Source: a virus. Taken from it: a DNA stretch of 37,388 bases. Where the stretch lies: positions 1-37,388 of IMG/VR virus record IMGVR_UViG_3300013131_000111. The stretch is one strand, 5' to 3'. Position numbers and translations under genes: made by a program. Positions 7,923-35,962 of this stretch are shown piece by piece. Within the stretch, counting starts at the first letter, position 1; each line of letters starts with the position of its first letter. A model generated the notes under the pieces. That model made no database searches. It was not told the origin of the DNA and saw only the letters and a program-made list of their open reading frames with translations.

Positions 7923-7951
7923 ACTCTATACCATGAAGTTATAAATGTCAA
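7923..7951 (-). promoter_or_regulatory. sigma70-type promoter, TTGACA-17-TAGAGT
   Basis: -35 TTGACA at 7951-7946 and -10 TAGAGT at 7928-7923 (or TATAGA at spacing 15). It overlaps the last codons of the secreted nuclease gene and drives the HD hydrolase operon. Confidence 0.7.
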
Positions 7952-8706
7952 TCATAAATATTCGACCAATGCTCAGGATTTACGACTCCTTCAGAGTCTT
8001 CATCGAGCTGTGGAAAGATATTAAGCCCCGTGAGTTCTTCTACTCGATTCACGGTGGTAAGATACTTAGGCATATCTTTGACTGGAAGTTCAGCGTTTGG
8101 CATAAGATATGCAATGGTCGAGTCTGTTGCCTTATCATATACGACCTTCCAGAGGTACGTAGGAACACCTACTTTACCATCACCAATGGTCTTATAACCT
8201 TCTTCGTAGATCGTGCCAGATACTACATAGAGGTCACGATTCTCAAGCGCCCAGTTGCGCACCTTGAGTTCAAGCATCCGCCAGATACCACGATTGTTAT
8301 TTGGAACTTGCGGTACCATGTTTGAGAGGAAGAAGCTCTCACTCATAACTTCTTGGCTAGCTTTATTATTCGCGCCTGCTGACAAGTGTCCACGATCATA
8401 TGGCTCACCTGAGTAATCTTCAAGGCTTGCTGAGTGTTCTTTTGGAATTTGATAATCTGGCCGAAAATCGTCCCTGCGTTTAGCAACACCTGTAATATCT
8501 AAATTATCAAGATGTTCAACTACATACTCAGCGGTCTTTGTGTCATAGCGGTAATGAATTGCGTAGTTAGTATGGCATACATACTGAGTGTTTTCAGTAA
8601 TAGCCGAAATAGGAGCGCCGAAAATCACGTGCTGAGAACAGTTCTCATCAATAGGATTTGCGAAAGTAACAGATGGTATAAGAGCAAGAAGATAAAGTAA
8701 GCGCAT
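7948..8706 (-). CDS. Secreted DNA/RNA non-specific endonuclease (NUC1/EndA type)
   Basis: A 252-residue protein beginning with a Sec signal peptide (MRLLYLLALIPSVTFA, cleavage likely after Ala16), so the enzyme should reach the periplasm or outside. The catalytic D-R-G-H motif is in EPYDRGHLSAGANN, followed by SFFLSNMVPQ and NNNRGIW, in which Asn residues bind the Mg ion in this beta-beta-alpha-metal family. Four Cys are near the N-terminus. An exported nuclease in a phage could destroy incoming competitor DNA, digest extracellular DNA or feed nucleotides; none is shown here. Confidence 0.88.
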   Translation of the reverse strand: MRLLYLLALIPSVTFANPIDENCSQHVIFGAPISAITENTQYVCHTNYAIHYRYDTKTAEYVVEHLDNLDITGVAKRRDDFRPDYQIPKEHSASLEDYSGEPYDRGHLSAGANNKASQEVMSESFFLSNMVPQVPNNNRGIWRMLELKVRNWALENRDLYVVSGTIYEEGYKTIGDGKVGVPTYLWKVVYDKATDSTIAYLMPNAELPVKDMPKYLTTVNRVEELTGLNIFPQLDEDSEGVVNPEHWSNIYD

Positions 8707-9970: not shown

Positions 9971-9998
9971 GACTATACTGATCGTTGGAGGATGTCAA
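9970..9998 (-). promoter_or_regulatory. sigma70-type promoter for the RNA ligase C-half
   Basis: -35 TTGACA at 9998-9993; -10 TAGTCT at 9975-9970 (spacing 17) or TATAGT at 9977-9972 (spacing 15). It overlaps the divergent late promoter and the ribosome binding site of the GIY-YIG gene, so the two directions may interfere. Confidence 0.6.
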
Positions 9999-9999
9999 C

Positions 10000-10713
10000 A
10001 TGTTTTTGCTGTACAAGACAACAAATTTGCTGAATGGTAAAGTGTACGTTGGTATTCATGAGTGTGGCGATACATGTCGACATCTTGTAGATTCTAAGTG
10101 TACGTACTTTGGGTCTGGCTCAGCCATTGGGCGGGCGCTGAAGAAGTACGGAAAGGAAAACTTTATACGAGAAACTTTAGCGGAATTTTCTACAGAGGCA
10201 CAAGTTCTCGCAGAAGAAGCACGTATCGTCGACAAAGCTTGGGTGAAGTCTTCTAATAACTACAACATGGCACTCGGAGGAGGTAAGCCGCCAAACCAAT
10301 CTGGCTTTAAGATGTCACAGAAAGCTAAAGAGAAGATCAGTGAAGCATCTAAGCAAAGATCACAAAGTTTGTCATATACAGCCAAGAAGACTATGGATGC
10401 TAGGGTTTCAACGGGTGGTTGGACTTCAGAAGAAATATCTAAAAGAGTCCAGACAAGAAGAACAACTGTTGGGTACTCGAGCGACATGACTGCATGTAAC
10501 ACCCAAGAATCTATAGCTAAACGTGTAGCTACTAAGAAGGCAAATGGTTACAAACAAGATGTATCTTACTTGCACTCAGAAGATGTTACTTTCCGCAAAA
10601 CAAGAACCAGGATCATCAACCAGATGAAGAAAGGCAAGACCTTCAATGAAGAGGTCTTGCTTAAGTACAACATTACTTCAGAAGATACTCAAGGTATTCT
10701 TCTACCGAGTTGA
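10000..10713 (+). CDS. GIY-YIG homing endonuclease inserted in the RNA ligase gene
   Basis: I place the start at ATG 10000, preceded by GGAGG at 9987-9991; a TTG at 9985 would lie on the ribosome binding site. The 237-residue protein opens with the GIY-YIG catalytic fold (LLYKTTNLLNGKVYVGIH, then GSGSAIGRALKKYGKENF and NMALGGGKPP), followed by a basic, Lys/Arg/Thr-rich DNA-binding region with modular repeats. It resembles T4 Seg proteins. It is the only plus-strand gene in the first 24 kb, is bracketed by the two halves of RNA ligase 1 and overlaps the end of the N-terminal half by 41 bp antisense. Confidence 0.85.
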   Translation: MFLLYKTTNLLNGKVYVGIHECGDTCRHLVDSKCTYFGSGSAIGRALKKYGKENFIRETLAEFSTEAQVLAEEARIVDKAWVKSSNNYNMALGGGKPPNQSGFKMSQKAKEKISEASKQRSQSLSYTAKKTMDARVSTGGWTSEEISKRVQTRRTTVGYSSDMTACNTQESIAKRVATKKANGYKQDVSYLHSEDVTFRKTRTRIINQMKKGKTFNEEVLLKYNITSEDTQGILLPS

Positions 10714-17531: not shown

Positions 17532-17649
17532 ATTTTTGTTTTAGACGATCGCAAAGTTCCAATTGTTTGCTCAACTGGTTTCGAAGATCGTTTGCTTTCC
17601 ATACTGCAGCCATCCACTCTACATATTCTTTCGAGCGAGTATCCATCAT
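17530..17649 (-). CDS. Hypothetical helical peptide, 39 aa
   Basis: ATG at 17649 overlaps the nadV stop (ATGATG), with AAGGTG just before. The 39 codons encode a charged helix (RSKEYVEWMAAVWKANDL then LSKQLELCDRLKQK). Its stop lies in the downstream hairpin. The coupling to nadV suggests it is real; function unknown. Confidence 0.5.
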   Translation of the reverse strand: MMDTRSKEYVEWMAAVWKANDLRNQLSKQLELCDRLKQK

Positions 17650-19073
17650 ACACCTTCCTTTGCACGTTCACGAATAGTTGCGAAGTCGTCTTCGATCAAA
17701 ATAATACCGTTGTGGTATACTTTACGAAGAAGGTTCTTTGCTGCGAACTCCCAGACGTAGTCTTCTGGTACAGTATGAATGTACGGGTTTACACCAAAGC
17801 CAGCCTCTTTCACGAGAGCCAAACGACCCTCTTTCGACTTCTTACCGTGGTCAGTGATTGGATCTTTCGAGAATCCTTTCCATTCGCCGTTAGCGCCTTT
17901 GATCGCCGAAGCTTTCATAGCATACTTAAGAGTATCACGGTTCCAAGCCTGCAGAAGACCACCACCCATACCGAATGCAATGTTATCGGCAGAAATGTTT
18001 TTCGCGATCATATTTTCCAGAATAATGGGCAACGACTTCTCGTTAATACCATCACCCTGAATTACACGAATGTAAGGAGGAAGAACTTTGAAACCCTTAC
18101 TGTTCACGGTGTAACCAAACTTCTCCATCAAGATCTCGATGATTTCGACTGGAACAGTCTCAGGGTCACCAGAGTCAGGGCGTACCACCAAGGTGCCGCC
18201 AGAAGCAATAATCTTATCTTTCAGAGCAGTACCCCAAAGATCTGAACATGCTTTGTAGATGTCGAAGCTGTCAGATACGCAAGCATAAAGTTTACCTTCA
18301 CCTGCGAACTGATTAATCATGTTGTCGTAAGCTTTCACTTCGTCTTCTCGACCCCAAGAAGTGATCGTCGAGTGTTCAGAAGCAGGAATCGAAAAGCCAA
18401 CGACTTCATCAGTGTTGTAGTATTCCATAACCCCGACAAGTGCTTCAGCCGTGTCAGTGCCCCAGAAGTTCACGAGGTGAGCCATACCACCAAGGATTGC
18501 GGTCTCACTTGAAGAAGCACCACGAGCACCGAAGTCATGCAACTTAAAGTTGATCTGAGCTTCTACCGGAACGTCAGACGTTTTCAATAGAGCAGCTTTG
18601 ATGATCTTCTTCATCTTACGTGACTTAGTCGCAACAGTCGAAGGGTACCAGACACCGCGCAGAAGTGCAGTCTCGAGGTATGAGGTCAGCCACCACAGGC
18701 GAGGATCAGTGTTCACCACCTGCACCTGAACGTTGTGAGTCGGCATAACCGTACCTTCAGGAACAGCTTCGATTTCAACAGGAAGCATGCCATCATATTC
18801 GTTGACGATAACTTCCCAGCCTTCACGGTTGAAAGGTAGACCGTGTGCAGTTACGATCTTCTCAGCACGGTCGACGTCCTCCATCGTGATAGGAGTCGTC
18901 ATGTAGTCTTTCATGAAAGCCTGAAGACCGAAAAAGACCGATTCATCTTCGCCACCACGAGATTCGATGTACGAAGACACATGAGTCGTGCCGGCAGGAT
19001 ACTGCACCCACTGTGAAAATTTGTAGCTGTCAGTGCGGATAATTGCGGAGATTAGATTTAGTACGTTTTTCAT
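17646..19073 (-). CDS. nadV: Nicotinamide phosphoribosyltransferase
   Basis: A 475-residue NAMPT, which joins nicotinamide to PRPP to give NMN. Diagnostic segments appear in order: TDSYKFSQWVQYPAG, FFGLQAF, FKLHDFGARGASS, the active-site His in SIPASEHSTITSWG, VRPDSGDP (PRPP phosphate region), VIQGDGINEKS and FGMGGGLLQ. The length equals that of bacterial and phage NadV. The NMN adenylyltransferase gene lies immediately upstream, giving a two-step route from nicotinamide to NAD+. The ribosome binding site sits in a small hairpin touching the start codon (19074-19090). Confidence 0.95.
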   Translation of the reverse strand: MKNVLNLISAIIRTDSYKFSQWVQYPAGTTHVSSYIESRGGEDESVFFGLQAFMKDYMTTPITMEDVDRAEKIVTAHGLPFNREGWEVIVNEYDGMLPVEIEAVPEGTVMPTHNVQVQVVNTDPRLWWLTSYLETALLRGVWYPSTVATKSRKMKKIIKAALLKTSDVPVEAQINFKLHDFGARGASSSETAILGGMAHLVNFWGTDTAEALVGVMEYYNTDEVVGFSIPASEHSTITSWGREDEVKAYDNMINQFAGEGKLYACVSDSFDIYKACSDLWGTALKDKIIASGGTLVVRPDSGDPETVPVEIIEILMEKFGYTVNSKGFKVLPPYIRVIQGDGINEKSLPIILENMIAKNISADNIAFGMGGGLLQAWNRDTLKYAMKASAIKGANGEWKGFSKDPITDHGKKSKEGRLALVKEAGFGVNPYIHTVPEDYVWEFAAKNLLRKVYHNGIILIEDDFATIRERAKEGV

Positions 19074-19090
19074 AATAGAGCTCCTCTATT
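19074..19090 (-). promoter_or_regulatory. Hairpin enclosing the nadV ribosome binding site
   Basis: A 7-bp inverted repeat (19074-19080 with 19084-19090) folds the GAGGAG of the nadV leader into a stem ending directly at the AUG. Such a structure could limit initiation until ribosomes translating upstream open it. Two further small stems lie between it and the nadM stop. Confidence 0.5.
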
Positions 19091-19134
19091 GTTAGGTTGA
19101 TGCCAACTCTCTCTGAGCTGGGCTTTATCGGTTA

Positions 19135-20148
19135 TTAGCCGATATTGATAAAGTTGTCGATGATGTGGAAGTGATCCTCAAACATTTTTTCTTGTTTGAC
19201 CTTGTTAAAGGGCACCCAGAACGCTTTAGCTGCATCATCAGAACCTTTCACTTTCGGCAGTTCGCCGACACCAAGATCGATCAAGAACGCTTGAGTGATA
19301 GTGCGGCCACGAGAAGAACGATTCGGAGCATCGAAGGTCTTAGACTCTTTGATAGAACCCTTCAGAACAGGAAGGGGAACCTTGATCTTGGTTTCTTCCT
19401 TGAGCTCACGGATAGCACCATCGAGCATTGTCTCTTCTTGGTTCAAGAACCCGCCCGGAAGAGCCCAAAGCCCTTTGCCCGGCATGTCACCGCGCTCGAC
19501 AAGAAGGATGTGACCCGATTGTACAACGACCGCGTCGACAGTCATGAACGTCGGAGGGAATGGCGCAGCTTTCCAAGCCTCCTTGTACTTCTTGACCATT
19601 TGGTATTCGTTGTACAGAGTATCCCAGTAGCCACCGATCTTTCCACCTGCGATGATGACTCTGTTCATTGCATCACGTGCAGCGTCAGGCATATTGTCAA
19701 GAGCCGCGAAGTCGCAGTTGCCGAACAGGCAGTTACGAATGTCGGTCGCGTTGATACCACCAACGTCTGCGACTTCCACGTGGTTCTTCCAACGCGGGAA
19801 GATTTCCAAGTAGTAGCTGGTGCTATCCTTCGAGTGACCGATCAGACCGATGTCTTCAGCATCAGGCACAGTGGATTCAACGATTCGCATAATCGCATTG
19901 ATCCACTTGTTATCATCATACGGGTAGTCAGAGACTGGAACGACTTTTACACGATCAGTCGGGAACACCGCTTCGATCATCGCCTTGCGTTCTTGGAATG
20001 TAAAAGGATTTCGAATGTTGCGAGCTGCGAAACTGGAACCGACGACTACGACGACTTCCTTTGCTTGCTCAAGCGCGGCTTCGATAACCGCTTTGTGTCC
20101 ATTGTGGAAGGGCTGGAACCGCCCGATAAAAACGAGTGCGTCACGCAT
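19135..20148 (-). CDS. nadM: Bifunctional NMN adenylyltransferase / Nudix hydrolase
   Basis: The start is ATG 20148 with GGAG 7 nt upstream; 337 residues. The N-terminal domain is a NadM-type nucleotidyltransferase (FIGRFQPFHNGHKAVI, VVVVGSSFAARNIRNPF, IGLIGHSKDS, GGINATDIRN). The C-terminal domain (from about residue 200) is Nudix, with the box GGFLNQEETMLDGAIRE then LKEETKI. The adenylyltransferase makes NAD+ from NMN and ATP; Nudix partners of this type are linked to ADP-ribose hydrolysis. It is transcribed with nadV. Confidence 0.93.
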   Translation of the reverse strand: MRDALVFIGRFQPFHNGHKAVIEAALEQAKEVVVVVGSSFAARNIRNPFTFQERKAMIEAVFPTDRVKVVPVSDYPYDDNKWINAIMRIVESTVPDAEDIGLIGHSKDSTSYYLEIFPRWKNHVEVADVGGINATDIRNCLFGNCDFAALDNMPDAARDAMNRVIIAGGKIGGYWDTLYNEYQMVKKYKEAWKAAPFPPTFMTVDAVVVQSGHILLVERGDMPGKGLWALPGGFLNQEETMLDGAIRELKEETKIKVPLPVLKGSIKESKTFDAPNRSSRGRTITQAFLIDLGVGELPKVKGSDDAAKAFWVPFNKVKQEKMFEDHFHIIDNFINIG

Positions 20149-20171
20149 GCAAAAACTCCTTTTGCTACTAT

Positions 20172-20194
20172 GTAGGAGCCTCACTGGCTCCTAC
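20172..20194 (-). promoter_or_regulatory. 9-bp hairpin in the nadM leader
   Basis: Arms 20172-20180 and 20186-20194 pair perfectly around a 5-nt loop, about 20 nt before the nadM ribosome binding site and just after the predicted transcription start. It may protect the 5' end of the message. Confidence 0.55.
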
Positions 20195-24433: not shown

Positions 24434-24441
24434 TATAAATA
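24434..24441 (+). promoter_or_regulatory. T4-type late promoter TATAAATA for the curli-cyclase island
   Basis: TATAAATA on the plus strand 23 bp before the first ATG of the island, with no -35 box, as for gp55-dependent late promoters. It implies late expression of the curli-cyclase genes. Confidence 0.65.
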
Positions 24442-24463
24442 CTAAGTCAAAGAGGAGAGTGGT

Positions 24464-24742
24464 ATGGATTTTCTTAGCTTAGTATCTGATGTAGGATTTC
24501 CGATTGCGGCTTCTCTGGCTGGTGGGTTCTTTGTTTTTCTAACGCTTCGGTTTATTCTTGATGGCGTGTTAGGCAGCATCAAAACCCAACGCGGGTTTGT
24601 AATGGCTCTGAATAATCGCGTAAAGACTATGAACAACGAATTAGTTCGAATCGATGTTTTAATTTGTAATGCGTTCGGTGTAAGACCTGACCTTGATCGC
24701 ATTGCTCGTGCAGATGGTCAGGCTGATGCAAGGAAAGACTGA
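24464..24742 (+). CDS. Small membrane protein with GFPI motif (copy 1)
   Basis: ATG 24464 follows GAGGAG. The 92-residue protein has an N-terminal helix (DVGFPIAASLAGGFFVFLT) and a heptad-like cytoplasmic part (KTMNNELVRIDVLICNAF). The VGFPIA start recalls the small YvrJ family. The next gene has the same design (NQYGFPIIAAFGLGYF, RMLDNDLIRLRAKLDMI), so the two are probably tandem paralogs and may form a hetero-oligomer. First gene of the late island; role unknown. Confidence 0.65.
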   Translation: MDFLSLVSDVGFPIAASLAGGFFVFLTLRFILDGVLGSIKTQRGFVMALNNRVKTMNNELVRIDVLICNAFGVRPDLDRIARADGQADARKD

Positions 24743-25044
24743 TGCAAGAAATAGCTAACGCGATTAATCAATACGGCTTTCCTATCATTGCTGCGTTTGG
24801 TTTAGGCTACTTCATTTACTATATTTGGACATGGGTGACTGAACAAGTAGATCCTATCGTAAATGAATCCCATATGACTCTGATTGGTTTGATTGATCGT
24901 ATTCGAATGCTAGACAATGATTTGATTCGTCTGCGGGCAAAGTTGGATATGATTCTACAGGAACAGGAAAGAGATAAACATGAGGCTGCTGCTACCAATA
25001 ATACTAATGACGACAACTCCGGCAATCGCTCAGGAGGCGTATAA
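24742..25044 (+). CDS. Small membrane protein with GFPI motif (copy 2)
   Basis: The ATG overlaps the end of copy 1 by one base (TGATG). The 100-residue protein has one helix (YGFPIIAAFGLGYFIYYIW) and a charged coiled coil, ending in an Asn/Asp-rich tail that overlaps the csgF-like gene by 65 bp; the last part may be compressed overlap coding. Paralog of the preceding gene. Confidence 0.6.
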   Translation: MQEIANAINQYGFPIIAAFGLGYFIYYIWTWVTEQVDPIVNESHMTLIGLIDRIRMLDNDLIRLRAKLDMILQEQERDKHEAAATNNTNDDNSGNRSGGV

Positions 25045-25417
25045 CTTCTCGAATCCTTCCTTTTCTGGACAAGGGTTTTCTCAGCATATTCTTACACTCG
25101 AACAGATGACTCAAAAGAATGAGCAGGCAATCGATGAACGTGAGAGAGCATTAGCTGAAGAAATTGAACGTGAGCTTCGAAACTCAAATCTAAATAAGTT
25201 CTTAAACAACGTCGAAGCAAGAATTTACGCCGAGATGTCGAAGCAGCTTGTCGATGCTATCTTTGGAGACAATCCAAGCGCCTCTGGTACAATTGAACTT
25301 GGAGGCAATACTATAGAATACTACAATGATGGTGTAGATGTTTATCTCACAATCACTGACCAGAATGGTAATTCAACAGAAATAGTTGTACCTTATGGAA
25401 CGTTAGGAATCGGATGA
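24980..25417 (+). CDS. csgF: CsgF-like curli assembly protein
   Basis: A 145-residue protein with a signal peptide (MRLLLPIILMTTTPAIAQ). The mature N-terminus YNFSNPSFSGQGFSQHIL matches the CsgF region that plugs into the CsgG pore (Asn-Pro-x-Phe motif), and the C-terminal part QLVDAIFGDNPSASGTIEL followed by VYLTITDQNGNSTEIVV matches the family's beta-rich end. CsgF lies on the outer face of the CsgG channel and helps anchor nucleation. The gene order csgF then csgG, with a 4-bp overlap, supports the call. Confidence 0.85.
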   Translation: MRLLLPIILMTTTPAIAQEAYNFSNPSFSGQGFSQHILTLEQMTQKNEQAIDERERALAEEIERELRNSNLNKFLNNVEARIYAEMSKQLVDAIFGDNPSASGTIELGGNTIEYYNDGVDVYLTITDQNGNSTEIVVPYGTLGIG

Positions 25418-26142
25418 TGAAATACCTTGTCATTCCACTTATGGTTGCTGGATGTGTAAATACGGCTGCAGTTCAAGAAGATCCTGAACTCGTAACGCCT
25501 ACACAAAGCTACGAAGTGCCTGCACCACGCAGTGGAAAGATTGTGGTTGGTGTATACGGCTTTGCTGATATGACTGGTCAGAGAACAGGTACAACTTTAT
25601 CATCTGCTGTAACACAAGGCGCAGAGAACTATCTTATCACTGGACTCAAAGATTTCGATAATGGTGAATGGTTTCGTGTTGTTGATAGAAAAGCAATCGA
25701 TAATTTAATCAAAGAGCGACAAATCATTAAGTCAGCGAATCCTAGCTTCACCGACGCAGATATGCCAACAATGCTTTATGCCGGCATACTCATTGAAGGC
25801 GGAATTGTGGGGTATGACACAAACGTTGTATCTGGTGGAGATGGTGTTCGGATATTTGGTATAGGAGCAAGCGGGAAATATTCGAAACATGTTGTTACGA
25901 TATCGCTTAGAGCAGTATCAGTCGCAACAACAGAAGTTTTAGCGAGTGTATTAGTGCAAAAAACAATAGTGAGTAAATCGGAAAACACTACAGTTGTTGC
26001 ATTCTTTGATCAAGACACTCAAACCATTGAAATGGAATCGGGATCAAATTATAATGAACCCTCAAATTATGCTGTACAATCAGCGATTGAGAAGGGTATA
26101 TATGAATTAGTTATAGAGGGAAAAAGGCAAAAAATCTGGTAA
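25414..26142 (+). CDS. csgG: CsgG-like curli secretion channel lipoprotein
   Basis: A 242-residue outer-membrane lipoprotein with lipobox V-A-G-C (Cys14). The CsgG family blocks are all visible: PAPRSGKIVVGVYGFADMTGQ, FRVVDRKAIDNLIKERQI, ILIEGGIVGYDTNVVSGG, VRIFGIGASGKY and ISLRAVSVATTEVLASV. CsgG forms a nine-membered pore that exports curlin subunits. The tail GIYELVIEG fits the family end. AGGA precedes the ATG. csgG and csgF have been reported in some marine myoviruses; the curlin and cyclase neighbours here are unusual. Confidence 0.92.
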   Translation: MMKYLVIPLMVAGCVNTAAVQEDPELVTPTQSYEVPAPRSGKIVVGVYGFADMTGQRTGTTLSSAVTQGAENYLITGLKDFDNGEWFRVVDRKAIDNLIKERQIIKSANPSFTDADMPTMLYAGILIEGGIVGYDTNVVSGGDGVRIFGIGASGKYSKHVVTISLRAVSVATTEVLASVLVQKTIVSKSENTTVVAFFDQDTQTIEMESGSNYNEPSNYAVQSAIEKGIYELVIEGKRQKIW

Positions 26143-26151
26143 AGGAAAAAG

Positions 26152-26832
26152 ATGAAACATTTAGCTATTACAGCAGTGCTTGTAATGGTGCCTACTATAA
26201 CATTTGCAGATCAGTCTGTGTATATTGACCAGGCAGGTGAAAATTTAAACGCTACTATTATCCAAAAATTGGGTGATAACAACACGATCGGTGATATCAC
26301 TGCCACCGACAAATACTTCTATCTCGACGGTGATGACATGACACTCACCTTCGGAATGGAAGGTGATGCAAACAAATTAATCGGTTCGATCTCTGGTGAT
26401 ACCTTAGATTTTACTTTGTCACAAATTGGTGATAACAACCTATTTGAGATTTATGCTACGCTTTCATCAAGCAGTTCTTTGTTGTGGAATATTATTGGAA
26501 GCGCGAATGAAGTGTACCTCAACATGGGCCAAGTAGTAAGCGCTGAATATACAACGCTTGATTACAACATAACCGGCAATGACAATATCTTCAATATTGG
26601 TATTGATGCCGATGGGGCTACTCATACTGTTGAGTTAACCGGTAATAGTAATGAATATACAATTACTCAAACTGGGTACGGGAGTTCATTAGAAGGTCAC
26701 CTCATCACTGTCGATGCTACTGGCAACTTCAATAGTGTAACTATTCTGCAAGAAACTACAACTGCGCAATCGATCGTTAATATGGTGACCAATGGCTCGA
26801 ATCAGGTTATTAGCATTACTCAGTCTGATTAA
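26152..26832 (+). CDS. Curlin-repeat-like secreted protein
   Basis: ATG 26152 with AAGGAA upstream; 226 residues. A signal peptide (MKHLAITAVLVMVPTITFA) is followed by repeated units built on Asn/Gln/Gly, such as DQAGENLNATIIQKLGDNN, LSQIGDNNLFEI, NITGNDNIFNIG, VELTGNSNEYTITQTG and VDATGNFNSVTILQE. This is the spacing of curlin repeats in CsgA/CsgB, which form amyloid beta-helices. The repeats are irregular, so it may be a nucleator or virion/surface fibre subunit rather than a CsgA ortholog. It is the natural candidate substrate of the CsgG/CsgF pore next to it. Confidence 0.75.
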   Translation: MKHLAITAVLVMVPTITFADQSVYIDQAGENLNATIIQKLGDNNTIGDITATDKYFYLDGDDMTLTFGMEGDANKLIGSISGDTLDFTLSQIGDNNLFEIYATLSSSSSLLWNIIGSANEVYLNMGQVVSAEYTTLDYNITGNDNIFNIGIDADGATHTVELTGNSNEYTITQTGYGSSLEGHLITVDATGNFNSVTILQETTTAQSIVNMVTNGSNQVISITQSD

Positions 26833-27838
26833 TCTGATTGCTGCACCATCGATAGCTGGCATTGGAGAAATAACTGAGTATAGTGGAACTGGGATGGTCG
26901 CGCGCTCTGAAGAAGAGATTAACGCCGACCTCTCATTGCCTATTGAAATGAACGATTATATCCAGACTGCCAAAGGTGTTATTGGTATTACCTTTGATGA
27001 TGAGACACAAATAAAAGTATCAGAACACTCTGAACTAACTATCGACGATTTTGTATATGACCCGAATACAAGTCAAGGGTCTCTTGGCCTCAAGGTTGCG
27101 ATGGGTACCGTGAAATATGCTTCAGGAAATATTGCTCACTCGGATCCAGACAGCGTTGATATTGAAACTCCTTCAGCCACAATTGCTGTTCGTGGCACAG
27201 CATTCACTATGACGGTTGATGAACTCGGTAAATCACTTATAATACTTGTTCCGAATATAGACGGATCTGTCGGTTCAATCGAAGTTTCAAACGATGTCGG
27301 GTTCGTTGTGCTAAACCGAGCATTTGAATCTGTTCGTGTTAGCTCTCGAGATTCTGCTCCATCAAAACCAGTTATAGTTTCTATTGATGAAAGCAATATC
27401 GACAACTATATGATTATTAGTCCACCGAAAGAAGTAAAGGATAAGATTATCAGAGAAGCAAAGAGTAGCAATCCTCTCGACGAAAACGAATTAGATGTTG
27501 ACTTACTTAAAGCAGATTTTCTTGATACTCGAGATCTTGAATTTAACGAGCTCGATGTCACCTATCTCGATGAAGTTATCTTCGAAGACCTTTTAAGATC
27601 TACGGATGCATCTGCTACCGACGGCGTAGTTCCTGGCCAGAATTCAGTAACTGGTGTTATAACAATTAAACAAGATCCTTATGTTGAAGTAATAAGAATG
27701 AATTCAAAGGGTACATTTGGTATTAAGTTTGTAGAAGAGACCGGTATAAACACGACTGCAACACAAGGCGAAATAACGATAAATATTATTACTCTCGATG
27801 GGCAATCAAGCAATTTTATAAGGTTAATACAACAATGA
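26792..27838 (+). CDS. FecR-domain exported protein
   Basis: A 348-residue protein beginning with a signal peptide (IRLLALLSLINLIAAPSIA). Residues ~50-160 form a FecR domain: NDYIQTAKGVIGITFDDET, a beta-rich run with MGTVKYASGNIAH and the hallmark TPSATIAVRGTAFTMTV. The remainder is acidic and beta/alpha mixed, ending with a short beta-rich domain. FecR domains sense or scaffold at the envelope; stand-alone exported FecR proteins are often encoded next to CHASE2 cyclases, as here. It overlaps the curlin-like gene by 41 bp and the cyclase by 4 bp. Confidence 0.85.
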   Translation: MARIRLLALLSLINLIAAPSIAGIGEITEYSGTGMVARSEEEINADLSLPIEMNDYIQTAKGVIGITFDDETQIKVSEHSELTIDDFVYDPNTSQGSLGLKVAMGTVKYASGNIAHSDPDSVDIETPSATIAVRGTAFTMTVDELGKSLIILVPNIDGSVGSIEVSNDVGFVVLNRAFESVRVSSRDSAPSKPVIVSIDESNIDNYMIISPPKEVKDKIIREAKSSNPLDENELDVDLLKADFLDTRDLEFNELDVTYLDEVIFEDLLRSTDASATDGVVPGQNSVTGVITIKQDPYVEVIRMNSKGTFGIKFVEETGINTTATQGEITINIITLDGQSSNFIRLIQQ

Positions 27839-29835
27839 AAATATTATTATCGCCGATGTGGGCAATCATTACAACCGCCGCTTTGACTTGGTTGACTCTA
27901 TCAAATCCTACATTTCTACAAAACGTCGAACTAAAACTCTTTGATCAGATGATTATTCAAGAGCCAATCAAAAACACCGACGCAGTTCTTGTCGATATAT
28001 CAGAAAAGACACTTGACAAATACGGGCAGTTTCCGTTCCCACGTGACACATACGCAGATATCATTACGCGATTAAGAGAATCAAACGCCGGTGTAATCGT
28101 ACTTAACCTATCTTTCCCTGAAGAAGATAGAACTGGCAAAGATAGTAAATTCATCGAGGTACTTCCTCAGGGTGTAATACTTGCACACTTTCCATCTGAG
28201 AAGACTGAAGGAAGAGCTGCATATGCTACGGGCATCGCAGAGGTCGGCGTTCCTGCTTCTAACTTTGTGCCTCGATATAAAGGCATAGCTGCGAACCTTC
28301 CACAATACGAATCAGCTGCTTCTGGCATCGGTATCGCAAACACTTTACCGGAAATAGACGGTGTTGTTCGTCGGCTTCCTATGATATCTGCAGTCGACGA
28401 TAAACTATATCCTTCAATTGTTCTTGAAATATTTAAAGCTTACGCTGGTACTAACACGTATCAGATCAAGTCTTCTGATTTTGGTGTTGAGGCTGTTCGA
28501 GTAAAAGGATTTGATGCCATTAAAACTGACCAGTTATCTCGTATCTGGATCAATCCAAACTTTACGTTCCAACGATATGACGCTGCTGATAACTTTCCAG
28601 ATCTTATGGGTGCTACAGTCTTTATCGGTGTAACGGCTGAAGGTATATCCAATCCGGTTCCAACTGCAGCCGGAGCGTCATACGGTCATGATGTAGTAGC
28701 AAAAGCTTTTGCATCAGTAACAAGTGGTTACAACATTGTAACACCAATGGAAAGTGAACTATATAAGTTAGCTGCTATCATTGGTCTCGGGCTTGTGATC
28801 GTGTTAAGTAGTTATATAAGATTCGGCTGGGCACTTCCGATTATTCTTGTGATTGGTGCAATTGCCTATCCATTCTATCTGTTTGCTACTAGCTCGATTC
28901 TCATCAACACTGCAATTCCTGCACTTATGTCGATTCTTGTCTTTGCTCATGTATACGGTGTAAAGTATGGCCAAGAATACTTCGCGAAGATGCAAATCAA
29001 GAAACAGTTTGGTACTTACCTATCTCCAGCAATGGTTGAAAAACTACAAAAGAATCCTGATCTACTTAAGCTCGGTGGCGAGACTCGCGAACTCTCGATT
29101 ATGTTTACAGACGTTCGTGGATTTACGACGATCTCTGAACATTACGGCGAAAACGTACAAGGGTTAACTCAAATCATGAATCGTTATATGACAGCCATGA
29201 CTGCTAAGATTCTTGAGAATGAAGGTACTCTTGACAAATACATCGGCGACGCACAGATGGCGTTTTGGAATGCTCCACTTGACGACTCTCAACATGCAAA
29301 GAACGCAGTAAGAACTGCGCTTGCTATGCTCGAAGACTTGGAGAAGTTCAATGAAGAAATTGCTCAAGAAGGCGTGCCGGCTTTTGGAATGGGACTTGGG
29401 ATTAATACTGCTCATGTGGTTGTGGGCAATATGGGTTCTTCTCAGCGTTTTGATTATACTTGCTTAGGCGACGGTGTTAACCTTGCTTCTCGTCTCGAAG
29501 GGCAGTCAAAACCATATGGCGTAAAGATGATTCTTGGTCCTGTGACTGCTGAACAGGTGAGAGACGAATTTGACGTATGCGAACTAGATTGTATAGCTGT
29601 GAAGGGTAAGACAGTTGGTGCAAAGATCTACACCATCCATAAGCAAACGGATGAACACAAAGCCTTCTTAAGAAGCTACTATGATGGCGATTGGGCTACT
29701 GCTATATATCGCTTAGAAAAGGCACGAGCAATATCGCCGGGTCTTAGCACATATTACGATGCAATGTACGATCGTATTCAAAGCGGCAAAGCTCCAGCAA
29801 ATTGGGATGGTACTTACCGCTCAAACTCAAAGTAA
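27835..29835 (+). CDS. CHASE2-domain class III nucleotidyl (adenylate) cyclase
   Basis: A 666-residue membrane cyclase. One helix at residues ~8-24 is followed by a periplasmic CHASE2 sensor (ILVDISEKTLDKYGQ-like start, FIGVTAEG near the end), three helices at ~312-375, and a C-terminal class III catalytic domain. Metal-binding Asp426 (IMFTDVRGF) and Asp472 (KYIGDAQMAFW), plus Asn549 and Arg553 in GDGVNLASRLE, are intact; Lys468 and Thr542 are the adenine-selecting pair of class IIIb, so ATP to cAMP is expected. The last ~50 residues look like a TPR-type helix pair. It would turn an envelope signal into a second messenger. Confidence 0.9.
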   Translation: MKILLSPMWAIITTAALTWLTLSNPTFLQNVELKLFDQMIIQEPIKNTDAVLVDISEKTLDKYGQFPFPRDTYADIITRLRESNAGVIVLNLSFPEEDRTGKDSKFIEVLPQGVILAHFPSEKTEGRAAYATGIAEVGVPASNFVPRYKGIAANLPQYESAASGIGIANTLPEIDGVVRRLPMISAVDDKLYPSIVLEIFKAYAGTNTYQIKSSDFGVEAVRVKGFDAIKTDQLSRIWINPNFTFQRYDAADNFPDLMGATVFIGVTAEGISNPVPTAAGASYGHDVVAKAFASVTSGYNIVTPMESELYKLAAIIGLGLVIVLSSYIRFGWALPIILVIGAIAYPFYLFATSSILINTAIPALMSILVFAHVYGVKYGQEYFAKMQIKKQFGTYLSPAMVEKLQKNPDLLKLGGETRELSIMFTDVRGFTTISEHYGENVQGLTQIMNRYMTAMTAKILENEGTLDKYIGDAQMAFWNAPLDDSQHAKNAVRTALAMLEDLEKFNEEIAQEGVPAFGMGLGINTAHVVVGNMGSSQRFDYTCLGDGVNLASRLEGQSKPYGVKMILGPVTAEQVRDEFDVCELDCIAVKGKTVGAKIYTIHKQTDEHKAFLRSYYDGDWATAIYRLEKARAISPGLSTYYDAMYDRIQSGKAPANWDGTYRSNSK

Positions 29836-29845
29836 CGGAAACAAC

Positions 29846-30166
29846 ATGTCAGAAGATATAAAAATTGACGAATGCGAAGTGGTGGATGAAAAGTTGAATA
29901 TGAAAGAAAAACAACTGAAAATTGAAAACGCTGACAAGAGAGAAGATGCTCAGCGCAGAATGGCTTGGTTTGCTCTTTTTGGGATGTTATTATATCCTAT
30001 ATCAGTTGTAATCGCAGCGTGCTATGACCTAGATCACGCTGCTACAGTTCTAGGTGATATTGCTCCAACTTACTTCGTATCAGTCGCAGCGATCGTAGCA
30101 GCATTTTACGGTGCACAAGCGTATAATACCGTTAAGGTGAATTCGAAGCCATCAGATGGTAATTAA
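29846..30166 (+). CDS. Two-helix membrane protein, holin-like
   Basis: The start is ATG 29846 (GGAA upstream); 106 residues. A charged N-terminal coiled coil (MKEKQLKIENADKREDAQR) leads to two helices (WFALFGMLLYPISVVIAAC and YFVSVAAIVAAFYGAQAY) with a short tail. Size and topology are compatible with a holin or holin accessory, but nothing proves it. Last gene of the late island; its end overlaps the convergent minus-strand gene by 35 bp. Confidence 0.6.
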   Translation: MSEDIKIDECEVVDEKLNMKEKQLKIENADKREDAQRRMAWFALFGMLLYPISVVIAACYDLDHAATVLGDIAPTYFVSVAAIVAAFYGAQAYNTVKVNSKPSDGN

Positions 30167-30824: not shown

Positions 30825-30990
30825 CTTCTCGCTCCGACCAGTCCATTTAGAGTTTGGACAAACTTGGGGCTAAAAAGCCACTCCACCACCTGCTTTTACG
30901 AAAGCAGGAAAATTCGTCAGGATCGTTTTGTCCGCTAAGACATCGAATATTATTTAGCGTTTTTGTTTGCTGAACCGATCCTATCTCTTA
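30825..30990 (-). ncRNA. Candidate structured RNA between endonuclease and tRNA-Gly
   Basis: No reading frame is supported. In the minus-strand RNA there are several stems: CGCTAA/TTAGCG, GGATCG/CGATCC, an 8-bp hairpin CCTGCTTT/AAAGCAGG with CGTA loop, GGCT/AGCC and GTCC/GGAC. A promoter (30996-31024) inside the endonuclease 3' end fires directly into it. It could be a small RNA or a processed leader of the tRNAs. Confidence 0.4.
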
Positions 30991-31616
30991 CGACTTTTAT
31001 ACCATCCTTCTGGTATAATGTCAACATCTTTTTTGATCTTCTTGTTCTCTTTACCGTCCGTTATCCACATCGTGCCGAACTGAGAATTTGAAGAACCAAC
31101 ATTCTTTGACTTACGCAACTTTTGTATCGTATCTTCTGAATGCTTCTTTCCTGTAAAGCCTCTACTGTTTTTGCCACCTAGAGAAGAATGAATTTTTCTT
31201 TTAGTTACAAAGTCATCATCTGTTTCCATAAGTCTTTTTATAACTCGTGCAGCTGCAGCAGATGCCTTTTTAGAAAAATTTGGATCTAACCTTCTTTGTT
31301 CATCTAAAGATACAGACTTTCCACTCATGTTCAGATAACCAAATCCACCATTACCTCCTGGGCAAAGGTTGTAAGTGTCTTCTCTTAAGCAGAACTCTTC
31401 TGTTACCAACAGAGCTTCTTTAGCATTCATATCAGCTTCATTATCAAACTGGAAGAGAATTTCTTTCGTAAAGTTCTCGATTCCATGTTTGTTTTGAGCA
31501 GATTTTAGATGTTTACCAGAACCCATGTAACCATCATTCAAGTCTTTGGTCTGATGTTTTCCAATATAGATCTCGCCATTGATTAGGTTAGTGATCTTGT
31601 AGATTGTGTAGAACAT
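30981..31616 (-). CDS. GIY-YIG homing endonuclease (Seg-like)
   Basis: A 211-residue free-standing endonuclease: the GIY-YIG domain TIYKITNLINGEIYIGKH then GYMGSGKHLKSAQNKHG and YNLCPGGNGGFG, followed by a basic C-terminal DNA-binding region with HSEDTIQKLRKSK, the NUMOD-type repeat. It sits between tRNA-Gly and tRNA-Pro, as T4 seg genes sit among tRNAs. It has its own TATAAATA box (31649-31656). About 35% of the sequence layout parallels the second GIY-YIG protein at 10000-10713, judged only by shared motifs. Confidence 0.85.
   Translation of the reverse strand: MFYTIYKITNLINGEIYIGKHQTKDLNDGYMGSGKHLKSAQNKHGIENFTKEILFQFDNEADMNAKEALLVTEEFCLREDTYNLCPGGNGGFGYLNMSGKSVSLDEQRRLDPNFSKKASAAAARVIKRLMETDDDFVTKRKIHSSLGGKNSRGFTGKKHSEDTIQKLRKSKNVGSSNSQFGTMWITDGKENKKIKKDVDIIPEGWYKSRKR
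30996..31024 (-). promoter_or_regulatory. sigma70-type promoter inside the endonuclease gene, TTGACA-17-TATAAA
   Basis: -35 TTGACA at 31024-31019 and -10 TATAAA at 31001-30996, in the last codons of the GIY-YIG gene. It drives the structured RNA and tRNAs Gly, Thr, Thr. Confidence 0.75.
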
Positions 31617-34625: not shown

Positions 34626-34664
34626 TGGTGGACCCTAGCGGGATCGAACCGCTAACTCCTAATT
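34626..34664 (-). pseudogene. 3' half of a split tRNA-Ala (positions 37-76)
   Basis: The sequence starts at AA then TTAGG (3' side of the anticodon stem), a 4-nt variable loop, a perfect T-arm and acceptor strand AGGGTCC with A73 and CCA. The acceptor pairs with the 5' half at 35287-35322 over all 7 positions, including G3-T70, the alanine identity pair. The halves are separated by the HNH element and a complete tRNA-Ala. Confidence 0.85.
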
Positions 34665-35240
34665 TATGGTGGAGGATAAGGGAGTCGAACCCTTGACTCT
34701 GCCTTGCAAGGGCAGCGTGTTCCCACTAGCACCAATCCCCCATTTGTCTTTTACTAATTCCTCAATCAAAGGAACTACTTCATTTGACCATTTACTATGA
34801 ACCATTTCGTGATGATTTGGACATAAGGGTATCAAATTTTTTGGTTCATTATTGTAATGATTTTCATCAATGTGATGAACCGCAACTACTTTATCAAATC
34901 CACAAATTGCACATTCACATTTCCAATTTTGAAATGCTATAGTTCTGTAGTGTGTAGCATTATCCTTCCACCATTCTTGCCTATTGTTTGCGCAAGACCT
35001 AGAGCAATAATACTTATCTTTCTGAGGATGAAGTTTTTCTCGTTCTGTTACTAAAAACTTATTAGAACAACATAAACATTCAACTTCAAATTCCTTTAAT
35101 TCACCAAACTGACTAATAGTTCCTTGCGCTTTATTCCAATTATCCCTTTTAGGATTATGTTCACACCAACGACTATGATTAGCCTTTTCCGAAGTAGTTG
35201 AGAAATTAAACTCTATTTTGCAATGTTTGCATTTCCACAT
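34659..35240 (-). CDS. HNH homing endonuclease running into a tRNA-Ala gene
   Basis: ATG 35240 with AGGAGG 8 nt upstream and TATAAATA at 35264. The 193-residue protein has zinc-finger-like Cys pairs (C4/C7, LCCSNKF, CAICGFD) and the HNH core VVAVHHIDENHYNNEPKN then LIPLCPNHHEMVHS. The last 25 or so codons coincide base for base with the complete tRNA-Ala at 34667-34741, and the stop lies in the split tRNA's 3' half, so the original C-terminus was probably replaced. It is the mobile part of the insertion into tRNA-Ala. Confidence 0.85.
   Translation of the reverse strand: MWKCKHCKIEFNFSTTSEKANHSRWCEHNPKRDNWNKAQGTISQFGELKEFEVECLCCSNKFLVTEREKLHPQKDKYYCSRSCANNRQEWWKDNATHYRTIAFQNWKCECAICGFDKVVAVHHIDENHYNNEPKNLIPLCPNHHEMVHSKWSNEVVPLIEELVKDKWGIGASGNTLPLQGRVKGSTPLSSTIN
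34667..34741 (-). tRNA. tRNA-Ala (anticodon TGC), complete, carried by the HNH element
   Basis: Acceptor GGGGGAT/ATCCTCC with G3-T70, A73 and CCA; loop CTTGCAA gives TGC. Its D-arm differs from that of the split tRNA-Ala, so it is not a copy of it. It lies entirely in the reading frame of the HNH gene. Confidence 0.88.
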
Positions 35241-35606: not shown

Positions 35607-35674
35607 ATAAAATTTCAGCCGGTGAATTCTTTTGTACGTGCGGCCGGATCCGTCACAATTTCTGACTAAAGACA

Positions 35675-35747
35675 AAACTGTAATAGGGATCGAACCCATA
35701 TCTCCCCGCCGTTCCGCAAGGCGTGCTATCCATTGCACCATACAGTC
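35675..35747 (-). tRNA. tRNA-like, probable Arg (GCG), irregular
   Basis: Acceptor GACTGTA/TACAGTT, D-arm GTGC/GCAC and T-arm are good, but the 3' end lacks CCA, position 73 is T, and the anticodon arm has only a 4-bp stem CGCC/GGCG around a 9-nt loop TTGCGGAAC. U33 rules suggest GCG. May be a decaying gene. Confidence 0.5.
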
Positions 35748-35962
35748 TACTAGTTCGCTTTCTCGGCAAAGACTGCTACTGTAGTTCTCTAGTCAAGGCA
35801 ATTGCCGCTGCCTATATAAATTCCTGGGCATCTCGCAATTGGGACTCTTACCCCTGCATCCAAGCTATGACTCAGACCGTGTTTCCCGATACGCCGAGTA
35901 GCCCTGTGGCGTATGTAGTGTTCTCATTGTAGTAGATGTCGACCTCTTCTACAACGTTTTAT
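35748..35962 (-). ncRNA. 215-bp gap with hairpins; candidate RNA
   Basis: No frame or tRNA. A 7-bp hairpin (35889-35895 with 35908-35914), a 6-bp hairpin (35927-35932 with 35949-35954) and the 10-bp palindrome GGCAATTGCC lie here in the minus-strand RNA. Possibly a small RNA or degraded tRNA genes. Confidence 0.35.

Follow-up and report, generated by a model that had tools for sequence, protein, structure and literature searches.

A phage curli secretion operon with a CHASE2-cyclase, and a counterpart built on type I secretion

The curli operon of marine phages is a puzzle, and proposals for its function include sibling capture, defence against superinfection, uptake of nutrients and the timing of lysis. 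What does such an operon do for a phage? We addressed this question with the IMG/VR virus record IMGVR_UViG_3300013131_000111, a 37.4-kb linear record of a marine-type bacterial virus, analysed here at its full length of 37,388 nucleotides (hereafter, the window). The minus strand holds most of the window genes, and the main exception is a plus-strand operon at 24464-29835. The gene order of the operon is TMa and TMb (two small transmembrane (TM) proteins), CsgF, CsgG, a curlin-repeat protein, a FecR-domain protein, a CHASE2-cyclase and, probably as its last gene beyond 29835, a small two-TM protein. An earlier note on this DNA, made from the sequence alone, had read the genes from csgF to the cyclase as a system that exports an amyloid-like surface protein and couples this export to cyclic AMP (cAMP) signalling. 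Every gene it named was found, and its span also takes in the two small membrane-protein genes at 24464-25044, which its title and description do not mention. As far as sequence can tell, its interpretation is partly supported, and its core, such export coupled to cAMP, is the best reading. We consider it fairly probable that the operon is a late surface-display module, in which CsgGF exports a curlin fibre, the FecR protein is the anchor, the CHASE2-cyclase provides a cAMP readout, and TMa and TMb are partners.

The operon genes described below are all on the plus strand. CsgF (24980-25417, with a signal peptide; PF10614, E = 1.9e-17) and CsgG, the outer-membrane secretion pore lipoprotein (25414-26142; E = 2.8e-43), were both matched by Pfam above the gathering scores, as were the FecR, CHASE2 and Guanylate_cyc domains that the earlier note had named. 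CsgG matched solved CsgG over residues 5-242 (E = 2e-38), and CsgF had no match among PDB sequences. The constriction loop of CsgG was shorter in the window than in E. coli and most relatives, and a short loop was present in 15 of 141 viral sequences. An altered pore as a phage speciality was rejected, because the viral loop is mostly of the same length as in alphaproteobacterial relatives and is shorter in the window lineage only.

The candidate fibre subunit, a curlin-repeat protein with a signal peptide, is encoded at 26152-26832. Taken by itself, this protein matches curlin only weakly (Curlin_rpt, E = 0.0013, a little under the gathering score). The curlin call is nevertheless sound, because it is backed by the family, a profile, the repeats and a model: Curlin_rpt was matched by 34 of 54 viral orthologues (best 5e-11), NCBIfam CsgA gave a match (9e-5), six repeat motifs were observed against 0.76 in shuffled sequences, with none of 5000 shuffles reaching six, and the AlphaFold model was almost all-strand and repetitive (pLDDT 89, pTM 0.83).

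Exporter, substrate and cyclase share one operon, as had been noticed earlier, and gene neighbourhoods were surveyed, as the earlier note had recommended. Scanning viral contigs with the window CsgG gave at least 579 relatives. Among viral loci anchored on CsgG and extending more than 7.5 kb beyond it on the downstream side, FecR and curlin genes were present in 46 of 46 and the cyclase gene in 45 of 46. The two loci closest to the window by CsgG, L005 and L006, share its layout with one curlin gene; identity between the window and L005 was 90% for TMa and 61% for CsgG. A 1.5-kb "Salmonella phage" record that also carries CsgG (OR851715.1, L004) is a short unverified assembly fragment, which probably does not belong to that phage.

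The FecR-domain protein is encoded at 26792-27838 (FecR Pfam, 2.4e-8, above the gathering score). It consists of a signal peptide, a FecR domain (about residues 23-196), a linker and a C-terminal beta domain (residues 289-347), and the same build is common to the viral FecR proteins. Their last strand is curlin-like (I-x-I-x-Q): a strict form of the motif was found in 64 of 118 viral FecR tails and in 74 of 3145 control windows, and the residue corresponding to Q347 is nearly invariant. By this comparison a conserved curlin-like strand ends the viral FecR proteins, a feature that is new here. In a fold search, the model of the FecR domain resembled FecR/PupR signalling domains (E = 8e-5). The protein has an N-terminal signal peptide and no anti-sigma domain, and no sigma factor or TonB match was found among the operon genes. 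It has only the FecR domain in common with the FecIRA regulator.

The cyclase gene occupies 27835-29835. It encodes a CHASE2 domain (1.3e-35) and a class III (IIIb-type) adenylyl cyclase domain (Guanylate_cyc, 3e-18), identified with Pfam and by comparison with solved cyclases (1wc1 and others). All six catalytic residues were found, in line with the earlier note: the metal-binding aspartates D426 and D472, K468 and T542 for base binding, and N549 and R553 for the transition state. T and N are the same as in CyaC (1wc1). Among 93 viral cyclases, the D, K, D and R of the active site were kept wherever the region was complete. At the positions of T542 and N549, 50 of the 93 carry D and S instead, with both changes occurring together. 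A separate cyclase search yielded 50 distinct cyclases longer than 590 amino acids (aa), mostly from a type I secretion context and a few from beside curli genes; all 50 keep D, K, D, S, N and R. The window cyclase would be expected to produce cAMP. Stand-alone proteins of 100-133 aa are encoded upstream of csgF in L011, L021, L033, L049, L052, L067 and L078, and are homologous to the C-terminal end of the cyclase, past the catalytic core.

TMa (24464-24742, 92 aa, phrog_18771) has one N-terminal TM helix and a soluble C-terminal part ending in DARKD. TMb (24742-25044, 100 aa) is a paralogue of TMa with the motif IDRIRMLDND, and likewise has one N-terminal hydrophobic stretch. In PMC9599517, a "histidine kinase" precedes csgF in the pelagiphage module; from position and shortness, TMa/TMb probably correspond to it. 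We rejected this function, since proteins of 92 and 100 aa gave no kinase domain match and TMa contains no histidine, which suggests dropping the name for the genes that precede csgF. In a search of 50,697 named phages, TMa and TMb were found only in six HTVC008M/Melnitz records, and the named phages with the pair are those with csgG, apart from the 1.5-kb fragment mentioned above. Mosig, the closest named relative by single-stranded DNA-binding protein, had no match to TMa or TMb. When viral loci were anchored on the pair and had at least 9 kb after it, the cyclase was present in 34 of 34 and csg genes in 32 of 34; in some loci the pair is found next to the cyclase and on the other strand. 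Judged by these neighbourhoods, TMa and TMb are fixed partners of the module, co-inherited with the cyclase, which is a new observation here.

The two TM-anchored loci lacking csg genes led to a type I secretion cassette. It comprises a large protein headed by a FecR domain, a TolC-family protein (TIGR01844, 1e-28), an LssB-type ABC part (TIGR03375, 7e-21), an HlyD-type adaptor (TIGR01843, 1e-48), the CHASE2-cyclase and the TM pair. The cyclase search gave 79 loci; where the sequence upstream of the cyclase exceeded 8.5 kb, the type I cassette was always present, with the exception of one curli locus. In L304, L300 and L320 the genes from the FecR-adhesin through TMb lie on one strand with small gaps or overlaps. 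The adhesins headed by the N-terminal FecR domain are 1005-1696 aa long. Among those scanned, cadherin domains were found in four and RTX repeats in two, one having both, and neither was found in that of L320. The FecR domain of the window shares 35-38% identity with the adhesin N-termini (E = 1e-25 to 1e-30). No CsgG match was found in the 148-kb and 138-kb type I records. Sampled regions of the type I contigs contained phage protease, HNH nuclease and DNA ligase families, and models of T4 portal, gp23 and terminase had no match in these contigs. No description of the cassette was found in the literature searched, nor was such a cassette found in named phages by tblastn with the cyclase and the HlyD protein. 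By domain content and homology, this is a type I secretion counterpart with the same FecR domain, cyclase and TM pair, and it is new here.

Two details of the type I loci were also noticed. The ABC protein is only about 250 aa long in the phage type I cassettes L212/L257/L274, L263, L285, L300, L304 and L320, and the L212 copy matches part of the LssB membrane domain only, with no ATPase domain found there. In L283 and L319, the cyclase (in L283 also the type I secretion genes) directly adjoins a divergent curli operon with a FecR protein of 739 aa and a second cyclase.

The counterpart narrows the choice among the functions proposed for the curli operon, because export of a surface adhesin together with FecR, cyclase and two membrane proteins is conserved across both arrangements. 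Since FecR, the CHASE2-cyclase, TMa and TMb are kept while the exporter is swapped, the constant theme would be that an adhesive polymer is displayed at the surface and read out through cAMP. That two unrelated exporters occur with one and the same set of FecR, cyclase and TM pair speaks for surface display and against a pore for lysis or uptake. Tentatively, and with less confidence than in the surface-display reading itself, FecR anchor, CHASE2-cyclase and TM pair could be viewed as an exchangeable adhesin control unit that is plugged into type VIII or type I secretion. FecR would then be a retention or loading sensor that couples export to cAMP, as the cAMP counterpart of LapA/LapD control.

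The surface-display reading is built on gene content, gene order, homology, intact catalytic residues, enrichment of late boxes and the exporter swap, and from these we infer fibre formation, the protein contacts (FecR as anchor or sensor, CHASE2 as reader), cAMP output and the benefit to the phage. A T4-type late promoter would drive expression of CsgG and CsgF, which would form a pore in the outer membrane. The curlin-repeat protein would leave the infected cell through the CsgGF pore and form an amyloid-like fibre on the cell surface. The FecR protein would enter the periplasm; its FecR domain might remain there, anchoring or retaining the protein at the exporter, and its curlin-like C-terminus might become part of the fibre. 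The cyclase, in the inner membrane, could sense the loading state of FecR with its CHASE2 domain and would make cAMP, with TMa and TMb as small inner-membrane partners of the FecR/CHASE2 sensor. The likely benefit would be that infected cells become clumped or coated, so that neighbouring hosts are caught or other phages are excluded. Contacts that can be tested follow from this scheme, namely FecR with CHASE2 and the FecR tail with the fibre.

Several observations weigh against the surface-display reading. A PDB fold search with the curlin model gave no significant match. The FecR model was only weakly like 5ix9, the surface-anchoring domain of an antifreeze adhesin (E = 0.014, rmsd (root-mean-square deviation) 1.2), a likeness that is suggestive only, and profile comparison of FecR with 5ix9 gave E = 0.05; we take the 5ix9 domain to be one that anchors a LapA-like adhesin. 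In a Pfam search of the operon genes, none matched CsgE, CsgC or CsgD; these are also reported as absent from pelagiphages and Alphaproteobacteria (PMC9599517). Finally, the authors who described phage Melnitz saw no clumping (PMC9004378).

Another explanation would put signalling first: cAMP from the CHASE2-cyclase would reprogram the metabolism of the host at a late stage of infection, with the exported protein as no more than a sensor arm. The active site is conserved in all complete viral cyclases, CHASE2 cyclases are reported to cluster with FecR-domain proteins in Campylobacterota (PMC9239204), and two alphaproteobacterial CHASE2 cyclases (L245, L246) adjoin FecR genes with no curli genes in the fetched stretch. 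We regard this explanation as unlikely, however, because the export genes show the same degree of conservation as the cyclase, and a pure sensor arm would not need two unrelated recruited exporters.

Lysis timing, which the earlier note had offered as one possible role, is disfavoured, and we give it a low probability. In this explanation CsgGF would be repurposed as a gated pore or pinholin, tuned by FecR and the cyclase, with TMa and TMb being holin-like. A pinholin or secretin was proposed for Melnitz (PMC9004378), the late promoter box before the operon would suit such a role, and the N-terminus of TMb weakly matches a holin family (seven of nine members, best 1e-4). The match of the window TMb, however, spans only 19 residues, and a curlin substrate lies downstream in all 46 loci. 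A lysis-pore model also leaves the swap to type I secretion unexplained, since other phages keep TMa/TMb, the cyclase and FecR with type I secretion and an adhesin instead of CsgGF. No endolysin was found among the operon genes. Uptake of larger nutrients or cofactors by the infected cell through an open CsgG pore, with the fibre genes secondary, was suggested in PMC7029224 and PMC9599517, and would fit the lack of a CsgE gate gene in the operon and the short constriction loop of the window lineage (15 of 141 viral sequences), but it is very improbable given that CsgF and curlin are conserved along with the pore and that the type I exporter variant is no passive pore.

The timing assumed by the surface-display reading is based on a T4-type late promoter box, TATAAATA, at 24434-24441 on the plus strand. 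Eight such boxes are present in the window against 0.96 expected, in agreement with the earlier observation of a box ahead of the operon, and among 124 viral loci, 47 have the box at most 150 nt before the operon, against 2.8 expected. The operon would thus be expressed late. Its genes had been described as following one another with overlaps of 4-41 bp. This was correct for CsgF/CsgG (4 bp), curlin/FecR (41 bp) and FecR/cyclase (4 bp), whereas CsgG and curlin are separated by a 9-bp gap. The small two-TM protein (29846-30166, plus strand) starts 10 bp after the cyclase, and a homologue (58%) lies directly 3' of the cyclase in the viral contig L165; the operon therefore probably extends to 30166, with this gene as the last.

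An assembly join, which would have undermined the phage assignment, is unlikely and was rejected because relatives have phage genes adjoining the operon: in L165, homologues of the window DNA ligase and metallophosphatase are located 2-4 kb upstream of the same operon. The operon sits in a genuine phage. Other T4-type features of the window are a gp63-type RNA ligase, DNA ligase, a primase fragment, a ClpP-like protease and tRNA nucleotidyltransferase. The window also has 25 tRNA genes, and within their array a tRNA-like gene with a reported four-base anticodon (gaac) lies at 35674-35748 on the minus strand. At 17646-20184 (minus strand), nicotinamide phosphoribosyltransferase, whose best named match is a Phaeobacter phage (60%), stands beside a protein that reads like a fusion of nicotinamide mononucleotide adenylyltransferase and Nudix; these are NAD salvage genes. 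A DNA/RNA non-specific endonuclease with a signal peptide is encoded at 7948-8706 (minus strand; Pfam 2e-48), and a relative of it (45%) is found inside the curli operon of L219, between FecR and the cyclase. Homing-endonuclease-like genes, GIY-YIG or HNH by eye, are present at 9985-10713, 30981-31616 and 34659-35240, each with a TATAAATA box just upstream on the same strand.

The full system had been presented as new, a claim that did not survive comparison with known phages. The operon order of the window is also that of Pelagibacter phage HTVC008M and of Methylophilales phage Melnitz. The genes csgF and csgG were described in pelagimyophages with sibling capture as an idea (PMC7029224), and PMC9599517 (2022) gives the full module with curlins, FecR and adenylate cyclase for pelagiphages. 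The window operon is an instance of an already published system. What the analysis adds, and what merits following up, is the counterpart built on type I secretion, the tail of FecR and the TM pair as a fixed component.

As to origin, the closest cellular CsgG proteins found were those of Sphingomonadales. A direct copy of a bacterial operon that already had FecR and cyclase is unsupported, as the closest bacterial curli loci lack both in the fetched stretch; these bacteria have CHASE2-cyclases elsewhere, two of them adjoining a FecR gene. Since FecR, cyclase and the TM pair are all missing from the fetched stretches of the closest cellular operons, the phage module seems to have been put together from a curli core, a pair of FecR and CHASE2-cyclase, and membrane proteins specific to phages. 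An alphaproteobacterial origin, as given in PMC9599517, would agree with this.

Among known systems, the type VIII secretion system (T8SS) region of HTVC008M (KC465899) is like the window in having TMa, TMb, CsgF, CsgG, curlin, FecR and cyclase in the same order, with 41% identity in CsgG and 38% in the cyclase. HTVC008M differs in a second curlin gene between FecR and cyclase, where the window has one curlin gene in all, and in GC content (0.33 in the HTVC008M stretch against 0.45 in the window, which has its 25 tRNA genes). The Melnitz operon (MZ577097) has the components and order of the window, but a second curlin gene, and in its cyclase the base and transition-state positions are filled by D/S instead of the T/N of the window. 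The pelagiphage T8SS module, written with HK for histidine kinase and AC for adenylate cyclase as HK-CsgF-CsgG-CsgA/B-FecR-(CsgA/B)-AC in PMC9599517, is the system of the window; in the accessible part of that paper, exporter exchange and the curlin-like FecR tail were not found described. Curli operons of Sphingomonadales (e.g. L090, L092, L116) share CsgF-CsgG-curlins with the window, with CsgG about 40-46% identical, and differ in that the stretch fetched contains neither FecR nor the cyclase nor the TM pair. The LapA/MpAFP-type adhesins secreted by type I systems are approached by the sister phages, whose FecR domain heads an adhesin accompanied by TolC, HlyD and an LssB-type ABC part, whereas the window uses CsgGF and its FecR is a separate protein.

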